From assembly GCA_963693285.1 (NCBI GenBank), contig OY848917.1:9114192-9178191 (forward strand): DNA of 64,000 nucleotides, written 5' to 3'. The DNA is from Xestospongia muta. Taxonomy: Eukaryota > Porifera > Demospongiae > Haplosclerida > Petrosiidae. Below, in pieces: positions 1,879-23,199 of the stretch; the stretch's first letter is position 1, and every line of letters begins with the position of its first letter. Below the pieces are notes generated by a model. That model was not told the DNA's origin, did no database searches, and was given only the letters and a program-made list of their open reading frames with translations. A program made the translations under genes and the position numbers.

Positions 1879-2067
1879 ACTTACCAAATTCTTCTGTTCC
1901 ATGATAACAGCTTGTATGTAGATGCAAAGACACCAACTAAACGCTATGTTACAGTCCAACAGATATCCAAGGGGCCTGTTATGAGGCTGAAATCTCGTGC
2001 ACTATTTACTGAAATGCTTGAATTCGAAGTTACAAGAAATTACAAGGAAGTCGTGAGACTTTGGACA
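1879..2067 (+). CDS. Open frame of unknown function interrupted by the MULE
   Basis: A frame is open from 1,879 to the transposon insertion point and includes the stretch KTPTKRYVTVQQISKGPV. It runs into the left target-site copy at 2,059-2,067 and would otherwise end just past the target site, where sequence after the right copy (17,260) gives a stop codon within two codons. There is no convincing start codon, so it may be a last exon or a chance frame. No family was recognised. Its interest is as the possible interrupted target of the element next to it. Confidence 0.3.
2059..2067 (+). repeat. Left 9-bp target-site duplication of the MULE
   Basis: CTTTGGACA directly precedes the left terminal inverted repeat. 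The same nine bases directly follow the right terminal repeat at 17,251-17,259. A 9-bp duplication is the usual length for Mutator-like elements. Confidence 0.85.
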
Positions 2068-2108
2068 ACTCTGTTGAAGTTAGCCTCACATTCCCGAGCC
2101 TCACATTC
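2068..2108 (+). repeat. Left terminal inverted repeat of the MULE
   Basis: It begins ACTCTGTTGAAG and holds two copies of GCCTCACATTC, matching the reverse complement of 17,210-17,250. The first five bases differ at three positions between ends; the next 36 bases differ at one. Confidence 0.85.
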
Positions 2109-2932
2109 CTGAGGACAAATATTTGACATTCTTGTGGTTTTGCTGTTGCGTGGGCTTTAATATTATCATTGGGTGGGGCTGGCTAATGTTTGGAAGATTA
2201 AGAAAATATATTTAAATATTTTTATTTTTATTTAAATAAACCAGACAAAGGTGCCTGAGCAATACCAATAACAATATATATTGTTTGTATAACACTGAGA
2301 ATGCATACCAATGCTAGATTGGTTATAATAGAAATAAAAATTAAAGTTAAATATTATAACAATATATGAAACAAAAACATTACAAACAAATACATTTGTA
2401 TGTCAACAGAAACTTAATAAATGAAATAAACATTGAATTTTATCTTCAAAATTATTGCTGCAGAACTCATTTCACTACCTAGGTTGAAACATTAGATATA
2501 ATACTTAAGGTTGGTTGGAAAACAATTTTATCAATCAGAAACATCAAAGAGTGTTAATTTTTATGATCAACAGTTTACAATTAATACAACCAACTGCACA
2601 CTATAATAGGCCAACAATAATAATTTCTATTATTTTTCTTTTTATGCTGGGAGGAGACAACTGTATTCAAAATACATGTAAATATGGTTAATAGGTTTTG
2701 ACTACATTTGAGCTACAAGATACATGAGAATATGATTAATACAATCAACTATACACCTTAATGAATCAACAAAAATAAATGTTGTTACATTTTTAGTTTC
2801 CATTGGACATAAGCACTACACCTATTTCTATAATGGTCTTCACTGCATTTATCTCATTATTTATATGAACATACTTAAGCCTAGAAAGAAACAGCCATGA
2901 TAATACATACAAATGCTTACTACATACTTTAC
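2109..2932. repeat. Left subterminal arm: diverged 142-bp-family copies
   Basis: From about 2,540 to 2,850 the sequence contains two diverged copies of the 142-bp unit seen in the right-arm array, but in reverse complement. Key blocks are ATATGATTAATACAATCAAC, CAACAAAAATAAA, the remnant of the TTTTTGCTGGG block and CTTCACTGCATTT. From 2,109 to 2,540 only AT-rich sequence is seen. Confidence 0.6.
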
Positions 2933-3974
2933 CTGTGACAACCAAAAATTAACTATGGAATCACTTCTCTATTCACTATAGACAATTGTTTTTGAAGCCA
3001 AACTTACTGGGGAGATCCCATGGTAAAGTTATGTTCAGTACTCATTACAATAACACGAATATTACCAATATCAAAAATTGTACCTATATTATTGAATGCA
3101 TTAGAATAAAGATAGATTATGTCACTGCTTACCAATCCTGATCTGTTCCTGATTTTGACAAAAGTAATCTTTTGTTGTAGGGAACACCACACTTGCCTCC
3201 AGAGTCAGTTCCTTTATAGAAATAACTGGAAAGACAGGATACAAAAACAAGTTTATCTAGTTCCCTTACTTACCTTAACTTGGAAAAGTATTTTCGTGAT
3301 TACCAATATATACCATATGTGGTGCTTGAGTAAATATTGGTTGAATTAAATCAAAGAATTCATCCCACTACAAAAGAGAGAATGAAAGTCAGTTTCATAT
3401 TACTTAACACTCATATCTCCAATATGTAATACAAGATCTATCATAGGTATGTCTGATTCAATGAGGCGAGTTATTTGAAGAGAAGGAACTTGTGAATGGA
3501 TTGCTTGAAGACTAACATCACTTGGGATTCACCCATATATTGGAGGGAGAGAGTTCAAATAGATCGTAAAGTATCATATTTTAATTCCAAATGTTATAAT
3601 TTTTATTCCGGCATTTGGATCAGATTTAGGTGGTACTTTAAATGAATAAATTGGACTCCACCCATAATTATCATCACCAAATTGATAATTATACACATGA
3701 TCAGTGTTAGCCTGAAACAAGAATCATGACATCATTAAAATATAATGGACTAACCTGTTCATAGTGACCACATGAAGTACTCCAGAGTCTATGTAGCAGG
3801 AGGTTCACACATGTCACTACCAGAATAGCTTATGACATTTTGTCTATGGTTACATGTGAGTAAAAATGAAATAAATAATATAAGGCGTCATGTATTTTCA
3901 ATTTGATATATGTTGCAAGATTTTGCCACCATTTAGCTTGTGGTTTGTTGGAATCTCGAGTTATCCACATCAAA
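2933..3974 (-). pseudogene. Captured purple acid phosphatase fragment
   Basis: Six exon-like blocks on the minus strand have GT-AG borders: 3,755-3,974, 3,404-3,711, 3,274-3,367, 3,133-3,211, 3,008-3,083 and 2,933-2,975. In order they read LMWITRDSNKPQAKWW and YSGSDMCEPPA (N-terminal Fn3-like domain), NYQFGDDNYGWSPIYSF, LVLHIGDMSV, WDEFFDLIQPIF with the metal-binding IGNHEN motif, TDSGGKCGVPY, and VIVMSTEHNFTMGSPQ. This is the order of plant-type purple acid phosphatases, secreted metallophosphoesterases. Decay is clear: a frameshift and a stop follow CEPPA, the GDxG motif is lost, a stop follows NTFPS, and in the last block a TAG stands where Trp is expected before LIFG. The C-terminal GHxH part is absent. 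It lies inside the transposon, antisense to the transposase, so capture by the element is the simplest explanation. Confidence 0.75.
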
Positions 3975-4119
3975 CTGAAAGTGAAGGAGAAGTAAATCAG
4001 AGAATGATATAGCAAATTAATATTATATTATTAGGTGATTATAAGACTGGCCGTGGATCATGTAAAGGTACTAGGAGAATTACAACAATTGAGTTAATAG
4101 TGTAAACACATTTGTGATC

Positions 4120-4262
4120 ACAAAATATATGTGAATATTAATAATATGATCAACTATACACTTTTATAGCTTAACAAAAATAAATTTTCTAAACTTTTCA
4201 TTTTAGTTGGGTGAGACATCATACCTATTCCTGAAATGGTTTTGACTGCAGTTGATGTAAAT
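4120..4262 (-). repeat. Diverged inverted copy of the 142-bp unit
   Basis: The blocks ATATGTGAATATTAATAATA, ATCAACTATACACTTTTATA, AACAAAAATAAA and TTGACTGCAG align with the reverse complement of the right-arm monomer. Confidence 0.6.
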
Positions 4263-4429
4263 GTGGAAGAGAGCAAGAAATAACAATCTAGTGCATAACA
4301 CATGAGTACACATACACAACACACATACCTATAATTATAATACAGGTATTTGATATGATCTAGTGTTTTCTTCACATCTTGATTATTATTTATTTATTAA
4401 TTAAAGTTACTTGACTTAGTTTTAATGTA

Positions 4430-5880
4430 TGTGTATTGTAGAAGGAATTATCACATTGAACATACCTTCATTTGATTTTACTCCAATTCTTGTCTTTGTT
4501 AAGACACGATAGTGTTAATCCTCAGAGATTCATCGTGACATTAACAGTTCCATTACATGTGCTTATCAACACTACTTCAAATGTAAGCACTTCATTATTG
4601 CTAGCAGGCTTAAATTTGTTGCATCAGTACTATCTGTAAATAGGACGCAATAAGTGTTAATCATCAGGGATTCATCACAACATTAACAATTCTATTGCAT
4701 GTGAATAGGATTAATACAATCAACTAAACACCTTAATAGATCAGCAAAAATAAAATTATCTACATTTTTCATTTTTGCTGGGCAGTGACAACGTATCTAC
4801 TCTTGCAATGGCCTCAACTGCATTTGTACTCACAAAATATATGTGAATATGATTAATACAACCAACAAATACCTTAAGATATCAGCAAAAATAAAAATTT
4901 CGACATATTTGTTTTGCTTGTTGGAGCACCACACCTACTCTTTCCACGGTCTCAACTGTATATATGTATGCAAAATATATGTACTATAGCAAAAATAAAA
5001 GATAGAAGTTAAAATTGAATAAAGGTTTTATTATTGAGATATTAGTATGTATTCTGCAAGGAATCATAACTTTGAACATACCTTCCTTTGATTTTACACT
5101 ATAATTCATGTCTTTGTTAAGACATAATTGTGCTAATCCTCAGAGATTCATTGTGACATTAGCAGTTCCATTACATGTGCTTATCAACACTACTTCAAAT
5201 GTAAGCACTTCATTATTGCAAGCAGGCTTAAAAATGTTGCATCAGTACTATCTGTAAATAGGACACAATAAGTGTTAATCATCAGGGATTCATCACAACA
5301 TTAACAATTCTATTGCATGTGAATAGGATTAATACAATCAACTAAACACCTTAATAGATCAGCAAAAATAAAATTATCTACATTTTTCATTTTTGCTGGG
5401 CAGTGACAACGTATCTACGCTTGCAATGGCCTCAACTGCATTTGTACTCACAAAATATATGTGAATATGATTAATACAACCAACAAATACCTTAAGATAT
5501 CAGCAAAAATAAAAATTTCGACATATTTCTTTTGCTTGTTGGAGCACCACACCTACTCTTTCCACGGTCTCAACTGTATTTATGTATGCAAAATATATGT
5601 ACTATAGCAAAAATAGAAGATAGAAGTTAAAATTGAATAAAGGTTTTATTATTGAGATATTAGTATGTATTCTGCAAGGAATCATAACTTTGAACATACC
5701 TTCCTTTGATTTTACACTATAATTCATGTCTTTGTTAAGACATAATTGTGCTAATCCTCAGAGATTCATCGTGACATTAGCAGTTCCATTGCATGGGCTT
5801 ATTAACACTATTTCAAATTCAAATACTTCATTACTTACAAACAGGTTTAAACTTATTGCATCAGTGCGACTATATATAAG
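4430..5880 (+). repeat. Tandem 617-bp units upstream of the transposase gene
   Basis: Two full units and one partial unit run in tandem, at about 4,430-5,045, 5,046-5,663 and 5,664-5,880. The block GAATAAAGGTTTTATTATTG at 5,017 recurs 618 bp later. The unit boundary TGCAAGGAATCATAAC and the block TCCTCAGAGATTCAT recur in all three. Each full unit holds two inverted copies of the 142-bp family (for example 4,710-4,840 and 4,845-4,975). The third copy ends at the TATA motif in front of the transposase start, so the unit derives from promoter-proximal DNA. Confidence 0.8.
5871..5880 (+). promoter_or_regulatory. Candidate TATA box of the transposase gene
   Basis: TATATATAAG lies about 170 bp before the chosen ATG, with a pyrimidine-rich candidate start region about 20-30 bp downstream. 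The equivalent positions in the two preceding 617-bp units read ATCTGTAAATAG and lack the motif. In such AT-rich DNA a TATA match alone is weak evidence. Confidence 0.35.
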
Positions 5881-6050
5881 TAAGACTGACTTCAGTTGTC
5901 AAGTGCTATTTATTTGAGAAACATTGACAGTGAACTCTTCTATTCTTCGTTTTACGATTATTATTTTTTAAAAAAACTCTGCCATCTATTAGTCAATTTG
6001 GTGCAACAGATCATCTCAACTTCTAAATACAGTGGTTATCTTGTACCACT

Positions 6051-9000
6051 ATGGTTAGAAATGTATGTATATGATTATTAAATTGTTTTTTTTCATTCAG
6101 CCACGTAAAGTCAAGTTCAAAGTTAACAGAGAAGCCCTTATTACCTTTGTCTGTGAAAATGGGTTACCGCCTAGAAAGGCTTCTTGTAAAAAGGATGGGT
6201 ATTGGTACAAGGCAGCAATGGCTGCCTGCAATGAGGTGAAACCATCAACGAAACTAACAAAGGCTGTCAGTAATCACTGGTACAAAAATGTCAGTGATTT
6301 TAGAACAGCCATTATTGATCTAGTAACCCAAAAGGTATGTGTATGATATTAATATTGGTAATACATGGACACAGAAAAACTCGATGGATCTTTATAATAT
6401 TAGATACCCACCTGCCAAGCTTCTCCTATCAGAATTGAAGATATGATAACATCTGATTTTATAATCAAGCACAATATTGGTAAACCAGTAAGTCCACTTG
6501 TGTTTAAAAGTGTGTGGTCATGATATCCACTTTCTATATAGGGCAGTAATACTCATCTTGAGACAACTCAAGCAATCTCTTCTCACCAATGCTTGGATAT
6601 AGTGAGTCATCCTGTAGGCTACACATATGACATATAGATATCTGCTGTACAACAGATCACTCACAATCTTATACCTCCTATACCTGATACTAACCTTCTT
6701 GATAGTGACAATGTCCATGAATCAATTCATGTAAGTGTTGACATCAATATAAAGTTAACCTTTTCAAACCCTTAATGGACAGAATGACATCTCAGCCAAT
6801 GACACATCATCTACTGGCAACTTTAAATCTGTAAGTGTAAACAAATAGGACTATATGTCTTGATAGTCACAATATGTAGACTTATATATTCCAACAAGAC
6901 TCTCTCTCCACCCTCAATGATAGTTATATAATGTCAAAATATTCACCTGATCATTTACAGCCTAACAAATCTGAGTATTATGTTGACTCAATTGACTCTT
7001 CTGCTCCTGACCTTTATTGTATATGCCAGAAACCATACAATGATGAAAGGTATATTTAAAAAAAGTCTAAATAAACACTTAATACTTCCTTTTCAAGCTT
7101 CATGATAATGTGCGACTATTGTGCAGACTTTTTTCATCCTGAATGTGTTGATATCAGCAAGGAACAGGCATTAAGTTGTGCAACATACAAATGTCCTTCT
7201 TGTGTTGAGGCAATGAAAGATGAACTCCTGTATGACGAAGGTGAAACATTAGTAAACACATTATTAACTTACATGTGAATTTATAGACAAGCTTGAAGAG
7301 CAATTGCAACTACTTGGAACACTTGAGTCAACTGAGATGGTAAATGCTAATTGTTATAATGGACTAAAATGAAATGCATCAATTATAATAGAAAAAAGAC
7401 TTACCAACATTTCTTAAAACACCATCCTCGTGGATTGAACAGTCTTTTCAGGTAAGGTACAATGAGGGACGAGAACAAAGTGTTATTCATATTACTTTTG
7501 TTTAGAGTGGAAGTGATGACCAATTCTTCCAAGTATCTATAAATCCTGACAATACGTACAAGTTAACATGGAAACTCTGGGAAAGAATGGGAGGCCTAAA
7601 GAAATCACTTGCTCCTCATTGGAAGAACATCATCCTGCGATTCTTAATGAAAGGAAACTCCTATTGTTCCTTTGCTTTCAAGAGAAAGTGGAGGAAAGCT
7701 CTACATTCTCGTAAAAAGTCATCTGTTGTCTTTCGTTGCAGTGGGCAGTGTACTTTTAAGGACTGTCCAGTCAAATTCACAGCAGAAATTTCTGATTACG
7801 ACATAACATCACCACCATCGCACCTCAATATACGTGTATCATTCTCCAGCAGTATTGTAAATCATGACAGAAAGGAACGAAAGGCAAGACAAATTCAAGA
7901 AGTAGACAGAAAAAAACTGAGAAAAGTTCTTACGTACCAATCACCATCAACTGTTTACAGCACAATCTTTGGATCGATCAAGGCTGAGGAGCTAGAATCA
8001 GGGAAAAGGGATAAAGTTGGCAAAAATCTAAGCACAATTCAAAAAATCTCATCAGAAGCAAACAAGGAGAGAGAGTTCCACTTTGAACTTATTCAATCAC
8101 TAATCAATCTCAGGGATAACATTATTGAAACATCTCCAGCATCTAAAATAAGTGGTTACATTCAGAGAATATGTGCTTATCCATTTAGTTTGATTTGTTT
8201 CACGGAGGAGGGAGTTCGGTTATACCATCATCTGACACCCTCTCAAACTCTATTTCTGGATGCAACTGGAAGTATCATGTCTTTAAAGAACACTGCTTAT
8301 GAGACCACTTCTCCATTATACTACTATTCACTTGTTATTAAACATCCAATTCAAGGGGAACCACCAGTAGCTGTAGCAGAGTTCATCTCAACAGAACATT
8401 CAGTTCTTGCAGTATCACACTTTTTAGAGTCTTTTCGAAGATCGGAAGCACTAATTTATGGTTATGCCAATGTGGTTATGCCCCATACAGTTGTCATCGA
8501 CCGTAGCCTTACATTACTACTGAGCTTTTTGAAAGTGTACAATCAAGAAACACTGTCCGACTATTTGCATCGGTGTTTTCGATTGCTAATGGGTTGTTCA
8601 ACAGAAAATGACTTTAAAAAGACATTCATTCATGCATGCATCTCACATGTAATGAAGAGCATAAGACAAGATCTAAAAAGGAAATGGTAATAAATTCAAT
8701 AACTAATGCTTTATGTATGTATTCCTTGTAGTTTGTCAAAAGAAGCATACAGGTTCACAATGTTCACATTTTCTTCACTTGTTAATGCATGGAGTATACA
8801 ATCTTTCTGTAAACGTCTCCAACTTAGCTATACTTTGTTCTGTTCTCAAAATATAGACGAAAAAGTCAAGTTAGCATACACATCTTTAGAGAAAGTGTTT
8901 ACTACATTGGGAGATGCAGGCCCAAAGGAGAATGAACAACTCGAACCTGAAGAAGAGGGACAAAACAGTATTGAAGATGATGTTGTACGTGACAATAAGG

Positions 9001-9664
9001 AAGAAGAGCGTCTAAACAAATTGGCAAAGAAGCCTTTTTATCCATTTATTATTGGAAAACTTAAGGATGTTTATACAATAACAGACCCTAAGAAGCCAAA
9101 AAATCCCCTCTATAACTCTAGTTGGCAAGATATCATGGAAACCAAATGGATATCACTTATTCCATTATGGACATCTGTCCTAAGAGGTTGAGTTTAATAC
9201 AGACACCATACGTGTGTTTATAACACATTTCTCATAGGAAACATAATGAGATACAAGACTAGTGACAAGAATGATGCTGAACAATTAGAACAATTGGTAA
9301 TGTGACATAAATATGTAGAGTTTTGTAATGACTTTCTTTGTGATTAGGTAATTAATGAAAAAGTGGATAGGACAACTGGATCAGTGGAAGCGTGGAATTT
9401 AATCATAAAACGTCATGACCATCCACAACACCGGCTCAGACCAGACATTTTTATCAAAGAACAATACTCTATATTAATTGGGAGGCAAAGAGCATTTATA
9501 GATAAACTTTCTGCAAAAACCAAGAACACATTGAAGGTGAGTAAGGCTGAGAGTGACTTTAAATACAGTACTGTTTTCAACTACCTATCTGTACATTCAC
9601 CCATCCATCCATCTATCTATCTATATTTATATCTATCTATCTATCTATATAATGTATATATTAC

Positions 9665-9709
<45 letters not shown>

Positions 9710-11141
9710 CATACATAAGAAAAAGAGATCGAAAGAATCCAAACCGTTACAAGAAAAATGGCAAAGAAGATCAAAAAAAAGATTCCATATTTACTAAACA
9801 GTCATCAAAAACCAACCATATTAGCATTTTGGGTCTATCCTTGGAGTAGTGTACAATCAAGAAAAAGTAACTATGACACTTCTGTTTGTAATTTTATAAC
9901 TCACCCATCCTCTACAGTACAATACTGTCAAGAATTGGATACTGAATACTAGGTATTTGACCTTTATAAAAATGATATAGGCAACTTATATCAATGTAGC
10001 TGTTGAGTGGCTAATATAGACAAGGAATCACTAAAGGAGTTTCCAGAGTATTTGAAAGCTGTAATGAGCCATGTTGAGCCAGGTACACAGAACAAACCTA
10101 TGTATTATTTATTCTGTCTGGCATGTGCAGCATGTTGTGTGTGCCAGGCAATCCTATGATTATTTTAAAACAACTTATTAGTTTATAACTAGCTTGGATC
10201 TCTGGTGTTCCATAGTCATAGAAACCCTAACAGACACTCTTGCTACTTATGTAATATTTGTAGCTCTAGTCAGTGTTTGTCTGTGAAGTCAGTACCTTCT
10301 AAAACAGTGATGATTTTTTCAATAATAATCTTGTTTTTTATCAAACATTTACATACACCAGAAATAGATGAACAAGATAATTACATGTCTATTCAAGGTA
10401 CTTAATTTAAGCTATTACCTTTCCATTTTGTATGAACACATTGTTCTATTTAGAAGATCCAAGATGTTCAGGAGCACTAGTACCAACATATTATAATAAA
10501 CCAAATGTACACTGTGATGAGCTCTACAGCAGTGACAGATATTGGGGAGAACAGTTTTTCATAGCCACGTATCCCAACCTTGAAAGAGAAGAAAGCGATG
10601 AGTAAGTTATAATGAGTGAAAGGTAACTATGTTCTATGTTTCCCTTTTTATCAGAAATTGTATATTTACAAGAACCTTCATGAGGTCCACTCTCAAAAAA
10701 CATGAAGTAAGTTTAGTTTAAAACATGTATATAAATTTCTAATATTTAACAGACAACAATAAGACAACTGTACTTGAATGTATGCCACAGTGATTACATC
10801 AAGCATAGGACACTTACGATAAAGAGGTTTAATGACAAATGGCCAATCACTCTGGATGATATGGTAACAATAAATGGCATGCATAATCAAAAAGTGGTTA
10901 TAGTTGCTAGAAGTTGAGCACTATCTAAAGGGAATAGAGAGTGATATAAAGCAGCAACCAATATATTTTCTGTCAGACTTCACAAAAACAATAGTCTGGC
11001 CAGAGGTATTGTCTGTATCAGTCTACTATAATTATTGATTCAAATATATAGGTACTTACTACTCTATTAATGGAGAGGTTTAAAATAAATTACAAAGAAG
11101 CAGTAAAGGCATACTTGTTAAGAGATATGCCATCCTCCTAA
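6051..11141 (+). CDS. PHD-finger MULE-type transposase, 22 exons
   Basis: Exons: 6051-6062, 6101-6334, 6404-6487, 6542-6601, 6638-6730, 6783-6830, 6880-7049, 7098-7240, 7287-7339, 7399-7451, 7508-8686, 8732-9186, 9238-9296, 9348-9540, 9728-9832, 10020-10082, 10362-10397, 10454-10601, 10655-10706, 10753-10863, 10904-11005, 11052-11141. All junctions keep one frame, giving about 1,180 residues. The ATG context is ACCACTATGG. A PHD finger (Zn-binding, chromatin-reader fold) spans residues 224-269 (C224, C226, C239, C242, H247, C250, C266, C269). The transposase core shows D568 (LFLDATG), D648 (VVIDRS), C694-x2-H697 (HACISH) and E895 (TTGSVEAWNLIIK), the DDE order with the C-x2-H motif of the MULE and related superfamilies. 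An acidic insert lies before the Glu. The protein should bind the element's ends and cut and join DNA in the nucleus. The 9,540-10,020 part, beside a (TA)n tract, has weak splice signals and is the least certain. Confidence 0.8.
6880..7240 (+). CDS. Two exons encoding the PHD finger
   Basis: Exons 7 and 8 (6,880-7,049 and 7,098-7,240) split the finger after the second Cys. The spacing is C-x-C-x12-C-x2-C-x4-H-x2-C-x15-C-x2-C, the Cys4-His-Cys3 pattern of PHD fingers. The intron is 48 bp with GT-AG ends and splits a serine codon. PHD fingers usually read histone H3 tails. Here it could direct integration or tether the transposase to chromatin, which is inference. Confidence 0.85.
7508..8686 (+). 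CDS. Main transposase exon (zinc-binding N-part, first DDE residues)
   Basis: This 1,179-bp exon is the largest in the gene. It carries a Cys cluster (FRCSGQCTFKDCPVKF) that may bind zinc and DNA, a basic helical region, and then the first two catalytic Asp motifs LFLDATG and VVIDRS followed by HACISH. The acceptor is taken at TTTAGAG|TGG, because the AG two bases upstream would lead to an early stop. The exon ends at TG|GTAATA, since reading through gives a stop at once and the next exon (from 8,732) restores CLSKEAYRF. Confidence 0.85.
9601..9720 (+). repeat. Intronic microsatellites (CATC/TATC)n and (TA)n
   Basis: CCATCCATC, CTATCTATC runs and an uninterrupted TA tract at about 9,668-9,704 followed by CATACATACATA fill this intron of the transposase gene. 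The acceptor after it lacks a pyrimidine tract, so expansion here may impair splicing. Confidence 0.9.
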
Positions 11142-11206
11142 CTATATTGTTATTTAAAGTTTTCGTATGTACATCAGAAAACATTTTGTAACTATTAAAG
11201 TTCTTC

Positions 11207-14200
11207 AATCAAATGAAAAAATGTTGAAACATTTAATTTTTGCTGAGCTATTAAAGTGTACAGTTGATCGTATTAATCATATTCACATGTATTTTGTAAA
11301 CATAAATGCAGTCGAGACCATTGCAAGAGTAGGTGGGGTGTCTCCACCCAGAAAAAACGAAAAATGTTGAAAAATTTATTTTTGCTGAGTTATTAAAGTG
11401 TACAGTTTATCGAATTTATTACATTCACATGTATTTTCAATAGACAATTGCAGTCGAGACCATTGCAAGAGTAGGTGGGGTGTCTCCACCCAGCAAAAAC
11501 GAAAAATGTTGAAAAATTTATTTTTGCTGAGCGATTAAGGGGTACAGCTGATCGTATTAATCATATTCATATGTATTTTCAAAAGACAAATGCAGTTGAG
11601 ACCATTGCAAGAGTAGGTGGGGTGTCTCCACCCAGCAAAAATGAAAAATGTTGAAAATTTTATTTTTGCTGAGCTGTTAAAGTGTACAGTTGATCGTATT
11701 AATCATATTCACATGTATTTTCAAAAGACAAATGCAGTCGAGACCATTGCAAGAGTAGGTGGGGTGTCTCCACCCAGCAAAAACGAAAAATGTTGAAAAT
11801 TTTATTTTTGCTGAGCTGTTAAAGTATACAGCTGATCGTATTAATCATATTCACATGTATTTTCAAAAGACAAATGCAGTTGAGACCATTGCAAGAGTAG
11901 GTGGGGTGTCTCCACCCAGCAAAAACGAAAAATGTTGAAAAATTTATTTTTGCTGAGCTATTAAGGGGTACAGCTGATCGTATTAATCATATTCACATGT
12001 ATTTTCAAAAGACAAATGCAGTCGAGACCATTGCAAGAGTAGGTGGGGTGTCTCCACCCAGCAAAAACAAAAAATGTTGAAAATTTTATTTTTGCTGAGC
12101 TGTTAAACTGTACAGCTGATCGTATTAATCATATTCATATGTAATTTCTAAAGACAAATGCAGTCGAGACCATTGCAAGAGTAGGTGGGGTGTCTCCGCC
12201 CCGCAAAAACGAAAAATGTTGAAAATTTTATTTTTGCTGAGCTGTTAAAGTGTACAGTTGATCGTATTAATCATATTCACATGTAATTTCAAAAGACAAA
12301 TGCAGTCGAGACCATTGCAAGAGTAGGTGGGGTGTCTCCGCCCAGCAAAAACGAAAAATGTTGAAAATTTTATTTTTGCTGAGCTGTTAAAGTGTACAGT
12401 TGATCGTATTAATCATATTCACATGTATTTTCAAAAGACAAAAGCAGTCGAGACTATTGCAAGAGTAGGTGGGGTGTCTCCGCCCAGCAAAAACGAAAAA
12501 TGTTGAAAATTTTATTTTTGCTGAGCTGTTAAAGTGTACAGCTGATCGTATTAATCATATTCATATGTAATTTCTAAAGACAAATGCAGTTGAGACCATT
12601 GCAAGAGTAGGTGGGGTGTCTCCACCCAGCAAAAACGAAAAATGTTGAAAAATTTATTTTTGCTGAGCTATTAAGGGGTACAGCTGATCGTATTAATCAT
12701 ATTCACATGTATTTTCAAAAGACAAATGCAGTTGAGACCATTGCAAGAGTAGGTGGGGTGTCTCCACCCAGCAAAAACAAAAAATGTTGAAAAATTTATT
12801 TTTGCTGAGCTGTTAAAGTATACAGCTGATCGTATTAATCATATTCACATGTACTTTCAAAAGACAAATGCAGTCGAGACCATTGCAAGAGTAGGTGGGG
12901 TGTCTCCACCCAGCAAAAACAAAAAATGTTGAAAATGTTATTTTTGCTGAGCTGTTAAAGTATACAGCTGATCGTATTAATCATATTCACATGTATTTTC
13001 AAAAGACAAATGCAGTCGAGACCATTGCAAGAGTAGGTGGGGTGTCTCCACCCAGCAAAAACAAAAAATGTTGAAAATGTTATTTTTGCTGAGCTGTTAA
13101 ACTGTACAGCTGATCGTATTAATCATATTCATATGTAATTTCTAAAGACAAATGCAGTCGAGACCATTGCAAGAGTAGGTGGGGTGTCTCCGCCCAGCAA
13201 AAACGAAAAATGTTGAAAATTTTATTTTTGCTGAGCTGTTAAACTGTACAGCTGATCGTATTAATCATATTCATATGTAATTTCTAAAGACAAATGCAGT
13301 CGAGACCATTGCAAGAGTAGGTGGGGTGTCTCCGCCCAGCAAAAACGAAAAATGTTGAAAATTTTATTTTTGCTGAGCTGTTAAAGTGTACAGTTGATCG
13401 TATTAATCATATTCACATGTAATTTCAAAAGACAAAAGCAGTCGAGACTATTGCAAGAGTAGGTGGGGTGTCTCCGCCCAGCAAAAACGAAAAATGTTGA
13501 AAATTTTATTTTTGCTGAGCTGTTAAAGTGTACAGCTGATCGTATTAATCATATTCATATGTAATTTCTAAAGACAAATGCAGTTGAGACCATTGCAAGA
13601 GTAGGTGGGGTGTCTCCACCCAGCAAAAACGAAAAATGTTGAAAAATTTATTTTTGCTGAGCTATTAAGGGGTACAGCTGATCGTATTAATCATATTCAC
13701 ATGTATTTTCAAAAGACAAATGCAGTTGAGACCATTGCAAGAGTAGGTGGGGTGTCTCCACCCAGCAAAAACAAAAAATGTTGAAAAATTTATTTTTGCT
13801 GAGCTGTTAAAGTATACAGCTGATCGTATTAATCATATTCACATGTATTTTCAAAAGACAAATGCAGTCGAGACCATTGCAAGAGTAGGTGGGGTGTCTC
13901 CACCCAGCAAAAACAAAAAATGTGGAAAATTTCATTTTTGCTGAGCTGTTAAACTGTACAGCTGATCGTATTAATCATATTCATATGTAATTTCTAAAGA
14001 CAAATGCAGTCGAGACCATTGCAAGAGTAGGTGGGGTGTCTCCGCCCAGCAAAAACAAAAAATGTGGAAAATTTCATTTTTGCTGAGCTGTTAAACTGTA
14101 CAGCTGATCGTATTAATCATATTCATATGTAATTTCTAAAGACAAATGCAGTCGAGACCATTGCAAGAGTAGGTGGGGTGTCTCCGCCCAGCAAAAACGA

Positions 14201-16402
14201 AAAATGTTGAAAATTTTATTTTTGCTGAGCTGTTAAAGTGTACAGTTGATCGTATTAATTATATTCACATGTAATTTCAAAAGACAAATGCAGTCGAGAC
14301 CATTGCAAGAGTAGGTGGGGTGTCTCCGCCCAGCAAAAACGAAAAATGTTGAAAATTTTATTTTTGCTGAGCTGTTAAAGTGTACAGTTGATCGTATTAA
14401 TCATATTCACATGTAATTTCAAAAGACAAATGCAGTCGAGACCATTGCAAGAGTAGGTGGGGTGTCTCTGCCCAGCAAAAACGAAAAATGTTGAAAATTT
14501 TATTTTTGCTGAGCTGTTAAAGTGTACAGCTGATCGTATTAATCATATTCATATGTAATTTCAAAAGACAAATGCAGTTGAGACCATTGCAAGAGTAGGT
14601 GGGGTGTCTCCACCCAGCAAAAACGAAAAATGTTGAAAAATTTATTTTTGCTGAGCTGTTAAAGTATACAGCTGATCGTATTAATCATATTCACATGTAT
14701 TTTCAAAAGACAAATGCAGTCGAGACCATTGCAAGAGTAGGTGGGGTGTCTCCACCCAGCAAAAACAAAAAATGTTGAAAATTTTATTTTTGCTGAGCTG
14801 TTAAACTGTACAGCTGATCGTATTAATCATATTCATATGTAATTTCTAAAGACAAATGCAGTCGAGACCATTGCAAGAGTAGGTGTGGTGTCTCCACCCA
14901 GCAAAAACGAAAAATGTTGAAAATGTTATTTTTGCTGAGCTGTTAAACTGTACAGCTGATCGTATTAATCATATTCATATGTAATTTCTAAAGACAAATG
15001 CAGTCGAGACCATTGCAAGAGTAGGTGGGGTGTCTCCGCCCAGCAAAAACGAAAAATGTTGAAAATTTTATTTTTGCTGAGCTGTTAAAGTGTACAGCTG
15101 ATCGTATTAATCATATTCATATGTAATTTCAAAAGACAAATGCAGTCGAGACCATTGCAAGAGTAGGTGGGGTGTCTCCGCCCAGCAAAAACGAAAAATG
15201 TTGAAAATTTTATGTTTGCTGAGCTGTTAAAGTGTACAGCTGATCGTATTAATCATATTCACATGTAATTTCTAAAGACAAATGCAGTTGAGACCATTGC
15301 AAGAGTAGGTGGGGTGTCTCCACCCAGCAAAAACGAAAAATGTTGAAAAATTTATTTTTGCTGAGCTATTAAGGGGTACAGCTGATCGTATTAATCATAT
15401 TCATATGTATTTTCAAAAGACAAATGCAGTCGAGACCATTGCAAGAGTAGGTGGGGTGTCTCCACCCAGCAAAAACGAAAAATGTTGAAAAATTTATTTT
15501 TGCTGAGCTATTAAGGGGTACAGCTGATCGTATTAATCATATTCACATGTAATTTCAAAAGACAAATGCAGTTGAGACCATTGCAAGAGTAGGTGGGGTG
15601 TCTCCACCCAGCAAAAACGAAAAATGTTGAAAAATTTATTTTTGCTGAGCTGTTAAAGTATACAGCTGATCGTATTAATCATATTCACATGTATTTTCAA
15701 AAGACAAATGCAGTCGAGACCATTGCAAGAGTAGGTGGGGTGTCTCCGCCCAGCAAAAACAAAAAATGTTGAAAATTTTATTTTTGCTGAGCTGTTAAAC
15801 TGTACAGCTGATCGTATTAATCATATTCATATGTAATTTCTAAAGACAAATGCAGTCGAGACCATTGCAAGAGTAGGTGGGGTGTCTCCGCCCAGCAAAA
15901 ACGAAAAATGTTGAAAAATTTATTTTTGCTGAGCTATTAAGGGGTACAGCTGATCGTATTAATCATATTCACATGTATTTTCAAAAGACAAATGCAGTCG
16001 AGACCATTTCAAGAGTAGGTGGGGTGTCTCCACCCAGCAAAAACGAAAAATGTTGAAAAAATTTATTTTTGCTGAGCTATTAAGGTGTACAGTTGATCGT
16101 AATAATCATATTCACACGTATTTTCAAAAGACAAATGCAGTTGAGACCATTTCAAGAGTAGGTGGGGTGTCTCCACCCAGCAAAAACGAAAAATGTTGAA
16201 AAATTAATTTTTGCAGAGCTGTTAAAGTATACAGCTGATCGTATTAATCATATTCACATGTAATTTCTAAAGACAAATGCAGTCGAGACCATTGCAAGAG
16301 TAGGTGGGGTGTCTCCACCCAGCAAAAACGAAAAATGTTGAAAAATTTATTTTTGCTAACCTATTAAGGTGTACAGTTGATCGTATAAATCATATTCACA
16401 TG
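11207..16402 (+). repeat. Satellite array, about 36 copies of a 142-bp unit (MULE right arm)
   Basis: The block GCAGTCGAGACCATTGCAAG recurs every 141-142 bp from 11,309 to 16,279, about 36 times. Each unit holds TAGGTGGGGTGTCTCCACCC (partly palindromic), AAAACGAAAAATGTTGAAAA, TATTTTTGCTGAGC and TGATCGTATTAATCATATTC. Local variants (ATTTTCAAAAGAC, AATTTCTAAAGAC, GTCTCCGCCC) recur in a pattern. The marker AAAAGCAGTCGAGACTATTG appears twice, 994 bp (seven units) apart, so blocks of units were copied together. The array starts 66 bp after the transposase stop codon. Short open frames inside it are not genes. Confidence 0.95.
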
Positions 16403-17100
16403 TTCTATTTGCTATTAAAATATCTAGACTTAGCTATATTTTGGGGCATGTACGCTTAGTCTAGCATAGCCTGACCCCTCCCACCCTAGGAGAAAGGTCT
16501 GGTCAAACTAATAAACTGATTTGTCTGTGTCCAGATATAAATATCCCATTGAACTACTGCCTCATTGAACAATACTTACCATCCCTCATACTTATTACTA
16601 GGTAGTCCATATAATATAGCAAGGCTATAGTGAAGGCTTGAGGCTATGACTACTTTGTTGAAAATTTTATTTTTATATAAGTCAGCAATATCTATACTCA
16701 CTCAGGATTTAGCATGTATTTCATATTCTTACAATCCTCACAAAGCATTGATCAAACTCATCACAATTGATTAGGAGGTAATGAAACTATCATTTGGCAG
16801 TTGGACGTTCATATCTGGACACCAGAGACAAGTTATCTATTGATTTAAATGAAAATATCTCCTTTGTAGGTGTAGGGATAGATATACGAGTCTCAGGTTA
16901 GTTTTTCGTTTTGTACTAAATCCAGGACTTACCTTTATTTACTCAGTACTTGGAGTGAAACATAGCTGGCACAGCTAACCTGATTGCCATATTCTCAGTT
17001 CATACATTATATACCAAACCTAGAAGTAAGCCAAGGATATTTTCATATTCATATGTAAGCAAATTCAAAACACAAACCTTCTTTCACGTGCAACCACTGC
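16403..17100 (+). other. Right subterminal arm of the MULE, between array and end
   Basis: Mostly non-repetitive. A 100-bp stretch at 16,797-16,896 stays open in one frame (including LSIDLNENISFVGVGIDI) and is followed by a GT donor. This could be a second captured exon, but no family is certain. No transposase-related coding is seen. Confidence 0.4.
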
Positions 17101-17105
17101 TTCCA

Positions 17106-17250
17106 GCCTCACATTCGAGCCTCCAGCCTCACATTCGAGGCTCGAGCCTCACATTCCAAATGATCCAATTGAGTAGGCGTTTGGAATGTCTATGATGTGG
17201 TTTTCTTACGAATGTGAGGCTCAGGAATGTGAGGCTAACTTCAACTACGT
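17106..17250. repeat. Right terminal inverted repeat and GCCTCACATTC motif cluster
   Basis: GCCTCACATTC occurs at 17,106, 17,126 and 17,146 (20-bp spacing) on the plus strand, then twice as its reverse complement (17,210 and 17,225) within the terminal repeat. The motif also occurs twice in the left end. Such iterated subterminal motifs are typical transposase-binding sites; that role is inferred. Confidence 0.8.
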
Positions 17251-17259
17251 CTTTGGACA
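17251..17259 (+). repeat. Right 9-bp target-site duplication of the MULE
   Basis: CTTTGGACA is identical to 2,059-2,067 and lies directly outside the right terminal inverted repeat. Confidence 0.85.
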
Positions 17260-17395: not shown

Positions 17396-17641
17396 TATTG
17401 TGACCTGATTTGCAAAAAAGGACCACTTGTGTCAAAACATTTGTGACCTGATTTGTGAAAAAAATCAACTGTTAAAACATATCAAACACAGTTTTTTGTA
17501 CATTCAGTTGCTATATATCCATAACTATTCTATATGTATGCAAAACTTTTTTTGATATTTTTTAACAGTGGTTTTTTCACAAATCAGGTCACTAATATTT
17601 TGACAGAAGTTGTCCCTTTTTGCAAATCCAGTCACAATTAT
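17396..17641. mobile_element. Inverted-repeat (MITE-like) element, copy 2
   Basis: TTGTGACCTGATTTGCAAAA at the left pairs with TTTTTGCAAATCCAGTCACAA at the right, and GTGACCTGATTTGTGAAAAA pairs with TTTTTTCACAAATCAGGTCAC. It is the same family as 717-976 and 61,678-61,882. It lies 140 bp outside the MULE. No coding capacity. Confidence 0.8.
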
Positions 17642-18121: not shown

Positions 18122-18341
18122 TGTAATAACTATATTATGATGTCATAGTGTGGTTTATTAATTTGTGACGTATTTCATATTTAAGCAGTGGTCTCGTGTA
18201 TTATTGTTCAGTTAGAGTTTTGTTGTTATCTTTTGTTATTGCTGGTTGGATTCCTTTGCATTGTGGTTATATCTATATCTCTATATTTATTTCTAAAGAT
18301 AGTTTTATTGTTATTTCCTAATCGGCTGTCAAGTTATTACA
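18122..18341 (+). repeat. 5' LTR (220 bp)
   Basis: Starts TGTAATAACT and ends AGTTATTACA, a perfect 10-bp inverted pair. It matches 23,211-23,430 with about eight substitutions and no length change. Confidence 0.95.
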
Positions 18342-18342
18342 A

Positions 18343-18360
18343 TTGGCGACGAGGGTCAAA
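18343..18360 (+). other. Candidate primer binding site
   Basis: TTGGCGACGAGGGTC follows the 5' LTR after one base. The position and the TTGGCGACGAGG motif are those of tRNA primer sites in many metazoan gypsy elements. Which tRNA it pairs with was not determined. Confidence 0.65.
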
Positions 18361-18365
18361 CCGAA

Positions 18366-19340
18366 ATGGCAGTACGTGGTACGCTATCTGTTTACGATTC
18401 GACTGCTGAGCCATGGACAATTTACGTGGAAAGATTAAACCAGTATTTCATTGCTAACGACGTGGAAGACAGTAGTAAGAAGAGGGCAATTTTGTTAGCA
18501 GTATGTGGTTCAAAAACTTTCCAGCTCATTCGTAGTTTAACAGAAGAGGATCCAACCTCAAAACCATATTACGACCCGAAACCGTCAGTTATAGTGCAAC
18601 GTTATAAATTCAATTCCAGAGTTAGAGGGACAGACGAAAATATTTCAACTTAGGACAGCTGGCAGAACACTGTAACTATAGAAATACCTTGTCTGAAATG
18701 CTACGCGATCGTCTCGTTTGGGGCATCAATCACCCTGCAATTCAGAAGACCCTCTTGGCTGAGAAAGATCTAACACTGAGAAAGCTTTGGATATTGCAAG
18801 GGCATTAGAGGCCGCCGAGAAGGGCACTAAAGATCTTAAAGTGGAAGTCACTCCTCCTGTTAGTTCAAGATATTTTGTGTCTCAAAGTCATTATCGTCGG
18901 CCACCGCTGAAAACGTTAGAATCAACCCGGTCACATAAACCATGCTATAGATGTGGGGGACCTCATCTCTTTTCAACGTGTAAATGCAAGGACTGGGAGT
19001 GCTTTAACTGTAAAAAGAAAGGACACATTGCAAGTGTTTGTAAATCAAAAAAGACCGGTGAGAAGAGTTCCGGTAGAAGAAACGTATCGTCTAAAAGTCA
19101 TTTTGTTACCGAGAAAATTTGTACACACACATGTAATTCAAAGTCTGAAGAATCAGATTCGCCATACACAATGTTCAATGCTAGAAACAGTTCAGTGGAA
19201 CCAACTATTATTAACGTTGTCATAAATGGAGTACCAATCAGTATGGAATTAGATACTGGTGCTTCACTTTCAGTTATCAGTGAGAGTACACATGACCGGA
19301 TAAATAAAGTTTCATCAACTCCGATTGTCAAGTCTACAGT
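18366..19340 (+). pseudogene. gag: gag and protease remnant
   Basis: Starts at ATG 18,366 in good context. The capsid-like part runs to about 18,650, where the frame breaks, continues in another frame (QLAEHCNYRNTLSEML), and shifts again near 18,785. Two CCHC zinc knuckles follow (CYRCGGPHLFSTC and CFNCKKKGHIASVC). The aspartic protease signature LDTGASLSV lies near 19,250. Coding is cut off by the DNA element inserted at 19,341. The knuckles would bind genomic RNA in an intact element. This copy is non-functional. Confidence 0.9.
19332..19340 (+). repeat. 9-bp target duplication of the nested element, left
   Basis: GTCTACAGT borders the nested element here and again at 20,261-20,269. Confidence 0.88.
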
Positions 19341-20260
19341 TAGTCTAGCTAGCTAGACCCTCCTCCGTTTTGATTAGCTGACGGGCGGAGGAGGGTCTAG
19401 AAGCGAACTGGACTTACTGCCCCATTGGAATTCGAATGTGGGGCAGTACCGCAATGTTTACATAGTGGTTATAAACTGTTATTATAATTATTTGCATGTG
19501 ATCCCTGAGTTCTTTATCTCTGTTCTCCTTGCAAATTTGGAAGCTGTTATGCCAAGCTAATATATAACTGAAACCTAGGGACACGTTATTGCCGTACTAA
19601 ATAAATTTGTCAAAGGAAAGTTTTTGATAAAATTAAAATCCAGGTTGTTACTGCCTATAAACTCTTTCAGAGGTCATCCTTTCAAAAAAATGCAAATATC
19701 ATAGGATTTACAAGTTACTTACTAGAAAATGAAAAGAACTAACAAATTATCAGATATATGATATAAATTTTTTCAAATCACTTAATTGTCAAAAAATCAA
19801 AACTTTTAAACTAATATCACTGTTGTTTGTCATAATCTTCCTTGTCCTCCTGGGCTGAAGTATTGGATATATATAGAAGTTGGAGATACAAACAATTTCA
19901 GCGGAGATGACAGATTTTGTTCCCATATATGAAACAGCAACACCTTTTTCATTTAAAGCTTTTCACTGATCTTCCATTAGAACTAGTAAAGGTGAAATAA
20001 CTAATACAAAAAAAATGATGACAGTCGTTAGAAGATGGTTTTTCTCTGCTCATCCTTTTAAGTTTAGGCAATCATGAGTCATTTTTTTAGAGTATAACTC
20101 CACGTGGCAATTATAATAACAGTTTATAACCACTATGTAAACATTGCGGTACTGCCCCACATTCCATACATTCCAATGGGGTAGTAAGCCCAGTTCGCTT
20201 CTAGACTCTCCTCCGCCAGTCAGCTAATCAAAAAGGAGGAGGGTCTAGCTAGCTAGACTA
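19341..20260. mobile_element. 920-bp inverted-repeat element nested in the retrotransposon
   Basis: Ends are perfect inverted repeats starting TAGTCTAGCTAGCTAGACCC. Pairing continues for roughly 150 bp (GGAGGAGGGTCTAGAAGCG, TACTGCCCCATTGGAAT, ATGTTTACATAGTGGTTATA), with small differences. It is flanked by a perfect 9-bp duplication, which suggests a Mutator-type origin. The central 600 bp is AT-rich without a transposase frame, so it is non-autonomous. Its TIR differs from that of the 15.2-kb MULE, so mobilisation by that transposase cannot be assumed. A 295-bp relative is at 47,739-48,033. Confidence 0.93.
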
Positions 20261-23199
20261 GTCTACAGTGGAATTGAAGACATATTTAGGTGAGAGTATT
20301 CCTATTTATTGGTAAAATTAGTGTACTGGTAAAGTACAAAGAGTTCCATGGAGTCTTGCCACTCCTTGTGGTAAAGGGAGCTGGTCCTAACCTTTTGGGT
20401 AGGGATTGGCTTTCCCAAGTTAATGTAAACATAGAGAAAATTTTCAGTCCAGAACCTCCCAGTCCACCACTTAAAGAAATCGTAGAAGAGTATCCTAATG
20501 TATTTTCAGACCAACTGGGATGTCTCAATGGGGCCAAAGTTCACCTCTATGTAAACAAAGAGGCTTGTCCAAAATTTTTTAAGCCAAGACCTGTCCCACT
20601 TGCTTTAAAAGACAAAGTAGGAAAAGAGTTAGATAGATTAGTTGCTGAAGTGATATTATCCCCTGTCCAATTCTCAAAGTGGGCTGCCCCAATAGTTCCC
20701 GTTGTCAAGTGCAATGGTTCAATTAGAATTTGCGGTGACTTTAAGGTTACCATCGTGATAAATCAAGTCTCTCGCTTAGATAGTTATCCCCTGCCAAGAA
20801 TTGAGGAATTGTTTGCAAAACTCTCAGGGGGTAAATATTTCAGTAAGTTGGATTTGTCACAGGCATATCTCCAGTTACCACTTGAAGAAAGTTCTAAAGA
20901 ATTCGTTACCATCAATACCCACAAGGGATTATTTTGCTACAATAGACTACCTTTTGGGTAGCGTCAGCACCTGCTATTTTTCAGCGGTATATTGAAACCC
21001 TACTTCAAAATTGTAAAGGGGTAACTGTATACCTTAACGATATATTAGTCACTGGTTTGTCAGTCAAAAATCATCTCGAGAATCTTAAAGCGGTGCTCAG
21101 CAAACTGGATAAGGCTGGATTGTACCTGAATAAAGATAAATGTAAATTTATGAGGACAAATGTCGAATATTTGGGACGCATCATTGATCGTGAAGGATTA
21201 CACCCATTCGCTGAGAAGGTCCAGGCCATACAAGAAACTCCCAAACCAAAAGATGTGTCTGAACTCAGATCTTTTCTGGGTATAACAAATTACTATGGTA
21301 GATTTCTACCTAACCTGTCATCTAAATTAGTACCCTTTTATGACCTGTTACATAAGGACAGGAAGTGGCAGTTGTCAAGTAAACAGGATGAAGCCTTCAA
21401 ATTAGCCAAGGAAGCTTTACAAACAGACTCATTACTTGTCCATTTCGATGACAAAAAGCCACTAATTTTAACATGTGATGCCTCTCCATATGGTCTTGGA
21501 GCTGTGCTATCACATACAATGGATGATGGCAGTGATCGACCAATTGCTTATGCATCAAGGAGCTTAACAGCTGCTGAGAAGGGTTATGCACAGTTAGAAA
21601 AGGAGGCGTTATCGATTATCTTTGGTATCAAGAAATTCCACAATTATTTGTATGGTCGTAAGTTCATAATTGAATCTTACCACAAACCACTGTTTTTCTT
21701 ATTTAGTGAGAAGAAAGGTATTCCTCAGATGGCCTCCGCTCGTATTCAGAGATGGGCTTTAACACTGAGTGCCTACCAATACACTTCGTCACAAGTCAGG
21801 AACCAAGATTGGTAATGCTGATGGACTTAGTCGATTACCCATACCAGCTAGTATCTCAACAGATTGTCTTCCAGGTGAAATGATAAATTTATTGGAACAA
21901 CTGTTAGAAACAAGTTATGATGCTACAGATATCAAGAAGTTCACCAATACTGACCCAGTTTTATCCACAGTACAAAGATGTATTCTCTCAGGATCAACTG
22001 TTCCTGAGGAGGAAGATTTCAAACCATACAAAACCAGGTAACATGAGCTTTCTGTTTTACAAGGCTGTTTGCTCTGGGGATCAAGAGTTGTAATTCCAAA
22101 AAAGTGTCGTGCTACAGTTCTCAAAGATCTACATGAGATACACCAAGGAGTAAACAAAATGAAGTCTCTGGCAAGGTCTTATGTGTGGTGGCCAAAGATG
22201 GATTACGAAATTGAAGAAATGGTGAAGAAATGTCAAACTTGTCAAGAATTACGCCCAACAGCACCTGCAGCTCCACTACACCCATGGGAGTGGCCTAAGC
22301 AGCCATGGAGTCGAATACACCTAGACTTCGCTTGTCCATTTATGGGATACGTGTTTTCAATCATTATTGATTCGCATTCCAAATGGATTGATGTTCAGCT
22401 AATGTAATCAATATCAGCTAGTAAGACTATTGGAAAACTAAGGATTGTTTTTGCAACATACGGGTTGCCAAGAAAAGTTATTACAGATAACGGACTGACA
22501 TTTACCAGTTCTGAATTCAGGCAGTTTATGGAGGGAAATGGTATCAAACATTCCACTACGTCTCCATACCATCCTTCATCAAATGGTCTGGCAGAGAGAA
22601 CAGTTCAAATGATCAAGAAGGCTCTAAAGAGTGGGAAAGAAGGAAATGTTCAAGAAATGTTGTCAAAGTTTTTGTTTATGTACCGTATCACACCTCATAC
22701 GACAACAGGAGTACCACCATCAGAATTGTTAATGGGTCGCCGTCTTCGATCACGGTTGGATTTATATTATCCAGAAGTCGAAGAAACAGTAGTAAAAGCT
22801 CAGAATAACCAGAAAAGATATCATGACAGTTCTAAGCAGTTGCGGGTATTTTCAGTCGGAGACAATGTGTTGGTTAAAAACTTCAGATCATCCAGTCCAA
22901 AATGGTTAAGTGGCACAGTTGTTAGATCAGGTGATCGTTCGTATATTGTCAAGTTACAGAATGGTTCGACAGTTAGACGACACATTGATCATATTAGAAG
23001 ACAAGAGATTGTTGATCCAGAGATAATAATAAGACGACGTTTTGATAGTGCAACTACAGAAGATCAACAAGATATACAAGTAACCCAATCATCAGAAACT
23101 GATAACATCGAACCAAGTTGTAGTTCGGAACCTGTTGTTCGTCGCTCTGTTCGTCAAAGAAGACCTCCAAACTATTATGGGACTCCTATTTTCTACTAA
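20261..23199 (+). pseudogene. pol: pol remnant: reverse transcriptase, RNase H, integrase
   Basis: Reverse transcriptase runs from about 20,460 (PRPVPLALKDKV, KLDLSQAYLQLPL, LFCYNRLPFG). A one-base frameshift follows near 20,960. The catalytic motif at 21,030-21,041 reads YLND instead of YxDD. RNase H follows (LTCDASPYGLGAVLSH at 21,470), but the usual DHKPL motif reads YHKPL. The frame shifts again near 21,780. In-frame stops lie at 22,039 and 22,405. Integrase shows the HEIH and CQTC zinc pair, HLDFACPF, IDSHSKW, VITDNG and NGLAERTVQ, so the D, D, E residues are present. A C-terminal GPY/F-like region follows (KWLSGTVVRSGDRSY). Removing the nested element would bring the protease and reverse-transcriptase parts back into one frame. 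Confidence 0.92.

Follow-up and report, generated by a model that had tools for sequence, protein, structure and literature searches.

An Internally Deleted Copy of a Probable Rehavkus-like Transposon in a Probable Sponge

The window analyzed here is a stretch of DNA of 64,000 nucleotides (C1:9114192-9178191) in which an element of 15,183 bases (positions 2068-17250) lies between two short direct repeats, and it raises the questions of which transposon lineage this element belongs to and whether it is complete. An earlier note, made from the sequence alone, had described it as an intact-looking Mutator-like transposon. We consider it highly probable that the element, whose host is probably a sponge, is related to Mutator and of Rehavkus-like type and that a conserved pair of coding regions, for a deubiquitinase and a SUMO protease, has been lost from the window copy. 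The name Rehavkus-like is given because the element combines a 9-bp duplication, short inverted ends, a PHD finger, and a minisatellite on the 3' side. The ends, the duplications, the multi-copy family, the deletion, the domain homology, and the conserved order of three domains in two families are observed directly.

Element Boundaries and Copies in the Genome

The outer parts of the element are as follows, with the basis of each assignment in parentheses.

2059-2067, no strand: left 9-bp target site duplication, CTTTGGACA (perfect copy at the right end)
2068-2108, plus strand: left terminal inverted repeat, 41 bp, four mismatches against the right one (identity with other copies)
16404-17209, no strand: subterminal region on the right, carrying short repeats of GCCTCACATT at 17106, 17126, and 17146 (repeat and copy comparison)
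17210-17250, minus strand: right terminal inverted repeat, 41 bp (pairing with the left end)
17251-17259, no strand: right 9-bp target site duplication, CTTTGGACA (perfect copy at the left end)

The perfect 9-bp direct repeat reported in the earlier note is present at both borders, and the inverted ends of about 36 bp with one mismatch that it described are obtained when the outer 5 bp of the 41-bp repeat are dropped. These outermost bases are not the same, one end having ACTCT and the other ACGTA, but each version recurs at its own end in other copies of the family and both are therefore part of the element. From base 2068 onward, three other copies match the left end of the window element at 100%.

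The genome searched comprises 158 Mb in 28 contigs. A 142-base query from the left end gave 48 matches, and a 21-bp end core, with up to two mismatches allowed, occurs 120 times (62 + 58) as compared with 0 + 0 for the reversed control. Sixteen end pairs were examined: 10 two-ended loci of the family of the window element, including the window itself, and six of the at least eight pairs counted for a sister family. Exact 9-bp duplications flank nine of the 16 pairs, one pair has a duplication of 10 bp, one matches at 8 of 9 positions, and five have none; when left and right flanks were cross-paired as a control, none of 240 combinations agreed within one mismatch. The pair matching at 8 of 9 positions belongs to the smallest copy, which at 80 bp is barely longer than its two ends. 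A short pair of the core of the window family at C7:1361111-1361191, in which two end cores face each other about 80 bases apart, was left out of the 16 and is perhaps another miniature copy. Both the end sequence and the 9-bp length noted originally thus passed the refutation test proposed in the earlier note, as they were found again elsewhere, with 10 bp in a single pair, and the window element is a defined transposon with a Mutator-like duplication length.

Duplications of 8 bp are made by hAT and P elements, and Kolobok elements duplicate TTAA. Neither hAT nor P fits the duplications found, which are 9 bp long in nine of the 11 duplication-bearing pairs, and the TTAA of Kolobok was not seen in the end pairs examined. 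The empty site for which the earlier note had suggested a search was not recovered: with the 200-bp flanks joined as a query, no uninterrupted paralogue was found among the 40 scored of 984 candidates. The halves of this query match only their own places, apart from a repeat at the distal end of the right-hand flank. A short repeat at window 17400-17460, in the right flank, occurs dozens of times across the genome.

Gene Structure and Transposase

The coding features of the element are all on the plus strand.

6101-6830, plus strand: three open upstream exons (6101-6334, 6656-6730, and 6783-6830), outside the joined nine-exon frame (first exon kept in sister copies)
6899-7240, plus strand: two exons (6899-7049 and 7098-7240) coding for a PHD finger (Pfam PHD; kept in sister copies)
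7287-7451, plus strand: two short exons (7287-7339 and 7392-7451) (second one kept in sister copies)
7506-8686, plus strand: main transposase exon, with a WRKY-like zinc domain followed by an RNase H-like core (family alignment and model)
8732-9296, plus strand: transposase exons 8732-9186 and 9238-9296 (sister-copy comparison)
9348-9536, plus strand: exon with the proposed catalytic glutamate (sister-copy comparison)
9720-9797, plus strand: last exon, which is read across the junction of the deletion as far as a stop codon (junction comparison)

When the nine exons of 6899-9797 are joined, a single open frame results; their borders are AG..GT, except that the final exon ends at a stop codon with no donor site. 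With three more open exons upstream, this gives no support for the unbroken frame of 22 exons claimed at first; the DDE-type transposase gene placed between the ends by the same note is confirmed, its main exon being open across 394 codons. The Pfam PHD profile matches exon 7098-7240 alone with an E value of 2.1e-7 and the spliced model with 8.3e-7. Two aspartates of the transposase, D252 (8259-8261) and D332 (8499-8501), are nearly invariant, and the sequence GSVEAWN, with its glutamate at codon 9387-9389, corresponds to GTIEAWN in the sister family; this glutamate is a candidate catalytic residue. A first search for relatives of the transposase gave two matches, and a profile search gave 44 members at E <= 1. 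Two proteins from another public collection are close to these sequences: P0004 is 99% identical to the transposase exon of the window, and P0003 is identical to that of the sister family.

The structure of the product of window 7506-8690 was modeled with AlphaFold2, and the predicted local distance difference test score rose from 45 with three sequences to 90 with 44. The nearest fold to this model is that of ISCth4, a member of the IS256 family, and its RNase H-like core is closest to an IS256-type transposase. The IS256 family is the prokaryotic relative of Mutator. No structure in the PDB matched the model at E <= 0.001 in a Foldseek comparison, and the transposase profile gave no match at E <= 1 against PDB sequences. 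Among structures of a viral library, a single one matches at E <= 0.001, that of the uncharacterized protein O92526 of Chelonus inanitus bracovirus (E 5.8e-8), which, from the model, is perhaps a wasp relative of the transposase. An Rfam scan of the window found nothing above the cut-offs.

Internal Deletion and the Lost Protease Domains

The closest copy of the window element, C2:6524034-6544026, has 19,975 bases without its duplications and is 99.2% identical to the window across the first 7.7 kb, but about 3.94 kb of its gene region is absent from the window.

9782-9784, no strand: junction of the ~3.94-kb deletion, with the 3-bp microhomology ATT common to both sides (copy comparison)
9785-11216, plus strand: 3' remainder of the gene region, left orphaned, with 98.8% identity to the longest copy (copy comparison)

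Past the junction, the frame of the window runs through four codons (F-H-I-Y) to a stop. The lost region is present, whole or in part, in seven of the nine other family copies examined, the exceptions being C6a and the 80-bp copy, and among the seven, four are flanked by an exact 9-bp duplication and a fifth by one of 10 bp. Each of the close copies compared is defective in some way, by deletion, stop codon, or inversion, and none was singled out as working; the closest other copy has one stop in the 394-codon transposase exon, which among the close copies is open only in the window. Judged by these comparisons, the window element is an internally deleted copy with its frame cut at the junction, and the description of it as intact-looking cannot be kept.

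When exons in the missing region of the long copy were spliced by hand, the product matched the Pfam profiles UCH (ubiquitin-specific protease, USP; E 7.7e-15) and Peptidase_C48 (Ulp1; E 4.6e-7). A genome search with the USP and Ulp1 pieces matched other copies and sister elements, and none of the matches listed lies at the window copy. A segment of about 1 kb with Ulp1 (L042 580-1600, about C2:6533579-6534599) is inverted in C2:6524034-6544026 only, with seven shared bases at its borders; in C3a, C1b, C7a, C1c, C5a, and C3b (two of them partial) it has the opposite orientation.

The sister family has the same end core. Three of its elements (C7:5613545-5630756, C7:6638899-6651816, and C1:23529412-23542582) carry transposase, USP, and Ulp1 in this order on one strand between their ends; the two on C7 are flanked by exact 9-bp duplications, the one on C1 by none. 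Identity between the families is about 50% for the transposase, 35% for USP (E ~1e-10, ~137 of 277 residues), and 51% for Ulp1 (E ~5e-6, ~55 of 162 residues). In the transposase exon, 44 of 70 shared fourfold sites differ, with a nonsynonymous divergence (dN) of 0.48 and saturated synonymous divergence (dS), a pattern that fits long constraint on the transposase; the same comparison for USP covers 45 codons with only five fourfold sites. The sister family also has two open transposase exons, L015 and L016, that share 99% identity, consistent with recent movement of the sister family.

Satellite Array and Other Repeats

The element contains the following repeats, most of them derived from a 142-bp satellite unit.

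2721-2799, minus strand: inverted fragment of the 142-bp satellite unit (unit comparison)
4432-5886, no strand: tandem duplication with an offset of ~617 bp, with inverted satellite fragments at 4694-4958 and 5312-5581 (repeat comparison)
11217-16403, plus strand: 142-bp satellite array, 36.5 units (tandem-repeat analysis)

The length of 15.2 kb, which the earlier note considered unusual, is that of a defined element, but one third of it is due to this 5.2-kb array. Other copies have ~42.5, 31.5, 31.5, 15 + 5, 9, 6, and 3.6 units, and the 80-bp copy has none; the old copy C5a has about one unit on its 3' side, where Tandem Repeats Finder lists no array. Among the matches listed, close matches to the satellite genome-wide are inside element copies or within about 10 kb of their ends, and a few at 78-81% identity are elsewhere. 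The window copy is an example of satellite expansion and internal deletion in one young transposon family.

Comparison with Known Elements

Rehavkus, a Repbase group, is characterized by a 9-bp duplication, short inverted ends, a PHD finger, and a minisatellite before the 3' end (PMC6446971). Very few members are known, from insects and annelids only, and whether they are Mutator-like elements (MULEs) bears on the origin of the group (PMC6446971). The element described here shares the 9-bp duplication with this group, which includes the 9.5-kb Rehavkus-1_TC of the flour beetle; its inverted repeats of 41 bp are within the 26-400 bp of Rehavkus, the PHD finger is part of the transposase protein (E 8.3e-7 on the spliced model), and the minisatellite (142 bp x 36.5, of varying length among copies) precedes the 3' inverted repeat. 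Satellite units inside the inverted termini are a further likeness, Rehavkus-1_TC having a 164-bp satellite there (PMC10218199). The likeness is one of features. Differences are that the host here is a probable sponge rather than an insect or annelid (PMC6446971) and that the fuller copies carry USP and Ulp1, neither of which is mentioned for Rehavkus in the available text. A search of open-licence papers gave no Rehavkus element with USP or Ulp1, none from a sponge, and no animal element for which USP and Ulp1 are described in combination.

Proteases of this kind do accompany other transposons. Some canonical MULEs, including the plant Kaonashi and Vandal elements, carry Ulp1 (PMC13317346), and Ulp1-bearing elements are also cited for hydra and lancelet (PMC2836005). 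The Ginger1 transposase carries either Ulp1 or an OTU protease at its C terminus, but not both, and one example has a PHD finger; this transposase is, however, of the Gypsy-integrase type (PMC2836005), and the USP of the fuller copies here is of a class other than those of Ginger1. A USP-type domain has already been noted with another transposase type (PMC2836005 and PMC13317346). Helitrons with VTD encode a deubiquitinase that has been suggested to help overcome a limit on transposon inheritance; in contrast to the element here, they are rolling-circle transposons, their deubiquitinase is of another class, and a SUMO protease is not mentioned in the available part of the report (PMC9741609). 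Tetris and foldback elements of Drosophila have internal tandem repeats that seeded satellites, but Tetris appears to be non-autonomous, with no transposase in the part of the description available (PMC4079207).

Alternative Explanations

Most of the weight against a Rehavkus-like assignment would come from the element being a canonical MULE, as first proposed, that is merely large. The duplication of 9 bp is inside the 8-11 bp range of MULEs (PMC6446971), and the nearest fold, that of ISCth4, is from the IS256 family. However, the Pfam MULE profile recognizes none of the 44 members of the transposase family at E <= 1, the one in the window included, although its matches at E <= 0.001 across this genome number 150, and the PHD finger and minisatellite are what separate Rehavkus from MULEs (PMC6446971); USP together with Ulp1 is a further difference. 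A canonical MULE is therefore unlikely, and of the Mutator-like identity first given, the duplication length stands, whereas the transposase is not that of a canonical MULE by profile and the features point to the Rehavkus side group.

Had the 3.94 kb been gained by other copies through gene capture, the window would hold the ancestral intact form, as its open transposase exon, unique among the close copies, might suggest. This is very improbable because seven of nine other copies hold the region in whole or part, USP and Ulp1 also follow the transposase in the sister family, and the last exon of the window is severed in mid-frame precisely at the junction. That unrelated ends were paired by chance, or that nested insertions produced a composite with an accidental 9-bp repeat, is hardly credible: broken or nested pairs do exist, given the five of 16 without a duplication, but several independent loci share the order of the ends, the internal order, and the 9-bp length with different duplicated sequences, and the 240 cross pairings gave no match.

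Proposed Mechanism and Significance

For the Rehavkus-like element, we propose that a DDE transposase with a PHD finger recognizes the ends, ACTCTGTTGAAGTTAGC..., probably with the aid of a WRKY-like zinc domain in the protein and of the GCCTCACATT repeats in the DNA, and that it would excise the element and reinsert it with a 9-bp stagger, as in cut-and-paste transposition. The fuller copies also encode the USP and the Ulp1-type SUMO protease downstream of the transposase; both were lost from the window copy in the single ~3.94-kb deletion, for which microhomology end joining would be the simplest route. Catalysis by the transposase, end recognition, a single gene for the three domains, and this route of deletion are predictions from sequence comparison. 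With both proteases deleted, the window copy would depend on help in trans for any further movement. Such mobilization of deleted copies may occur, because C7a and C3b have exact duplications although they lack the main transposase exon.

The proteases may counter ubiquitin or SUMO marks of the host. A broader proposal, which we put forward tentatively and regard as somewhat less likely than not to hold in full, is that these elements form a previously undescribed animal lineage in which the gene for a PHD-finger transposase of the Mutator/IS256 type precedes both a deubiquitinase and a SUMO protease, the order being retained despite ~50% divergence of the transposase, and that the pair might serve to strip ubiquitin and SUMO from proteins with which the host silences or repairs DNA, or else from the transposase. 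That two diverged families have each kept two neighboring modifier proteases belonging to different classes suggests that removal of ubiquitin and SUMO aids transposition, and near-identical sister copies within one genome make this role testable. If the assignment is correct, a sponge member pushes the Rehavkus lineage toward the base of the animals and provides more sequences for its tree.

Neighboring Features of the Window

Just to the right of the element, window 18303-23199 (plus strand) contains open frames like those of Ty3/gypsy-type retrotransposons, split over several frames, in which zinc knuckle, reverse transcriptase, and integrase motifs were recognized by eye. Related reading frames recur on the minus strand at 26340-27648, 31842-35469, and 55238-58762, and for one 620-residue frame among these repeats there are related proteins in Amphimedon queenslandica, including two annotated as Death-domain proteins. 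The view of the host as a probable sponge is based on a neighboring gene, for which the only named relatives among the best 120 of 329 matches are two proteins of A. queenslandica, with 42-43% identity.
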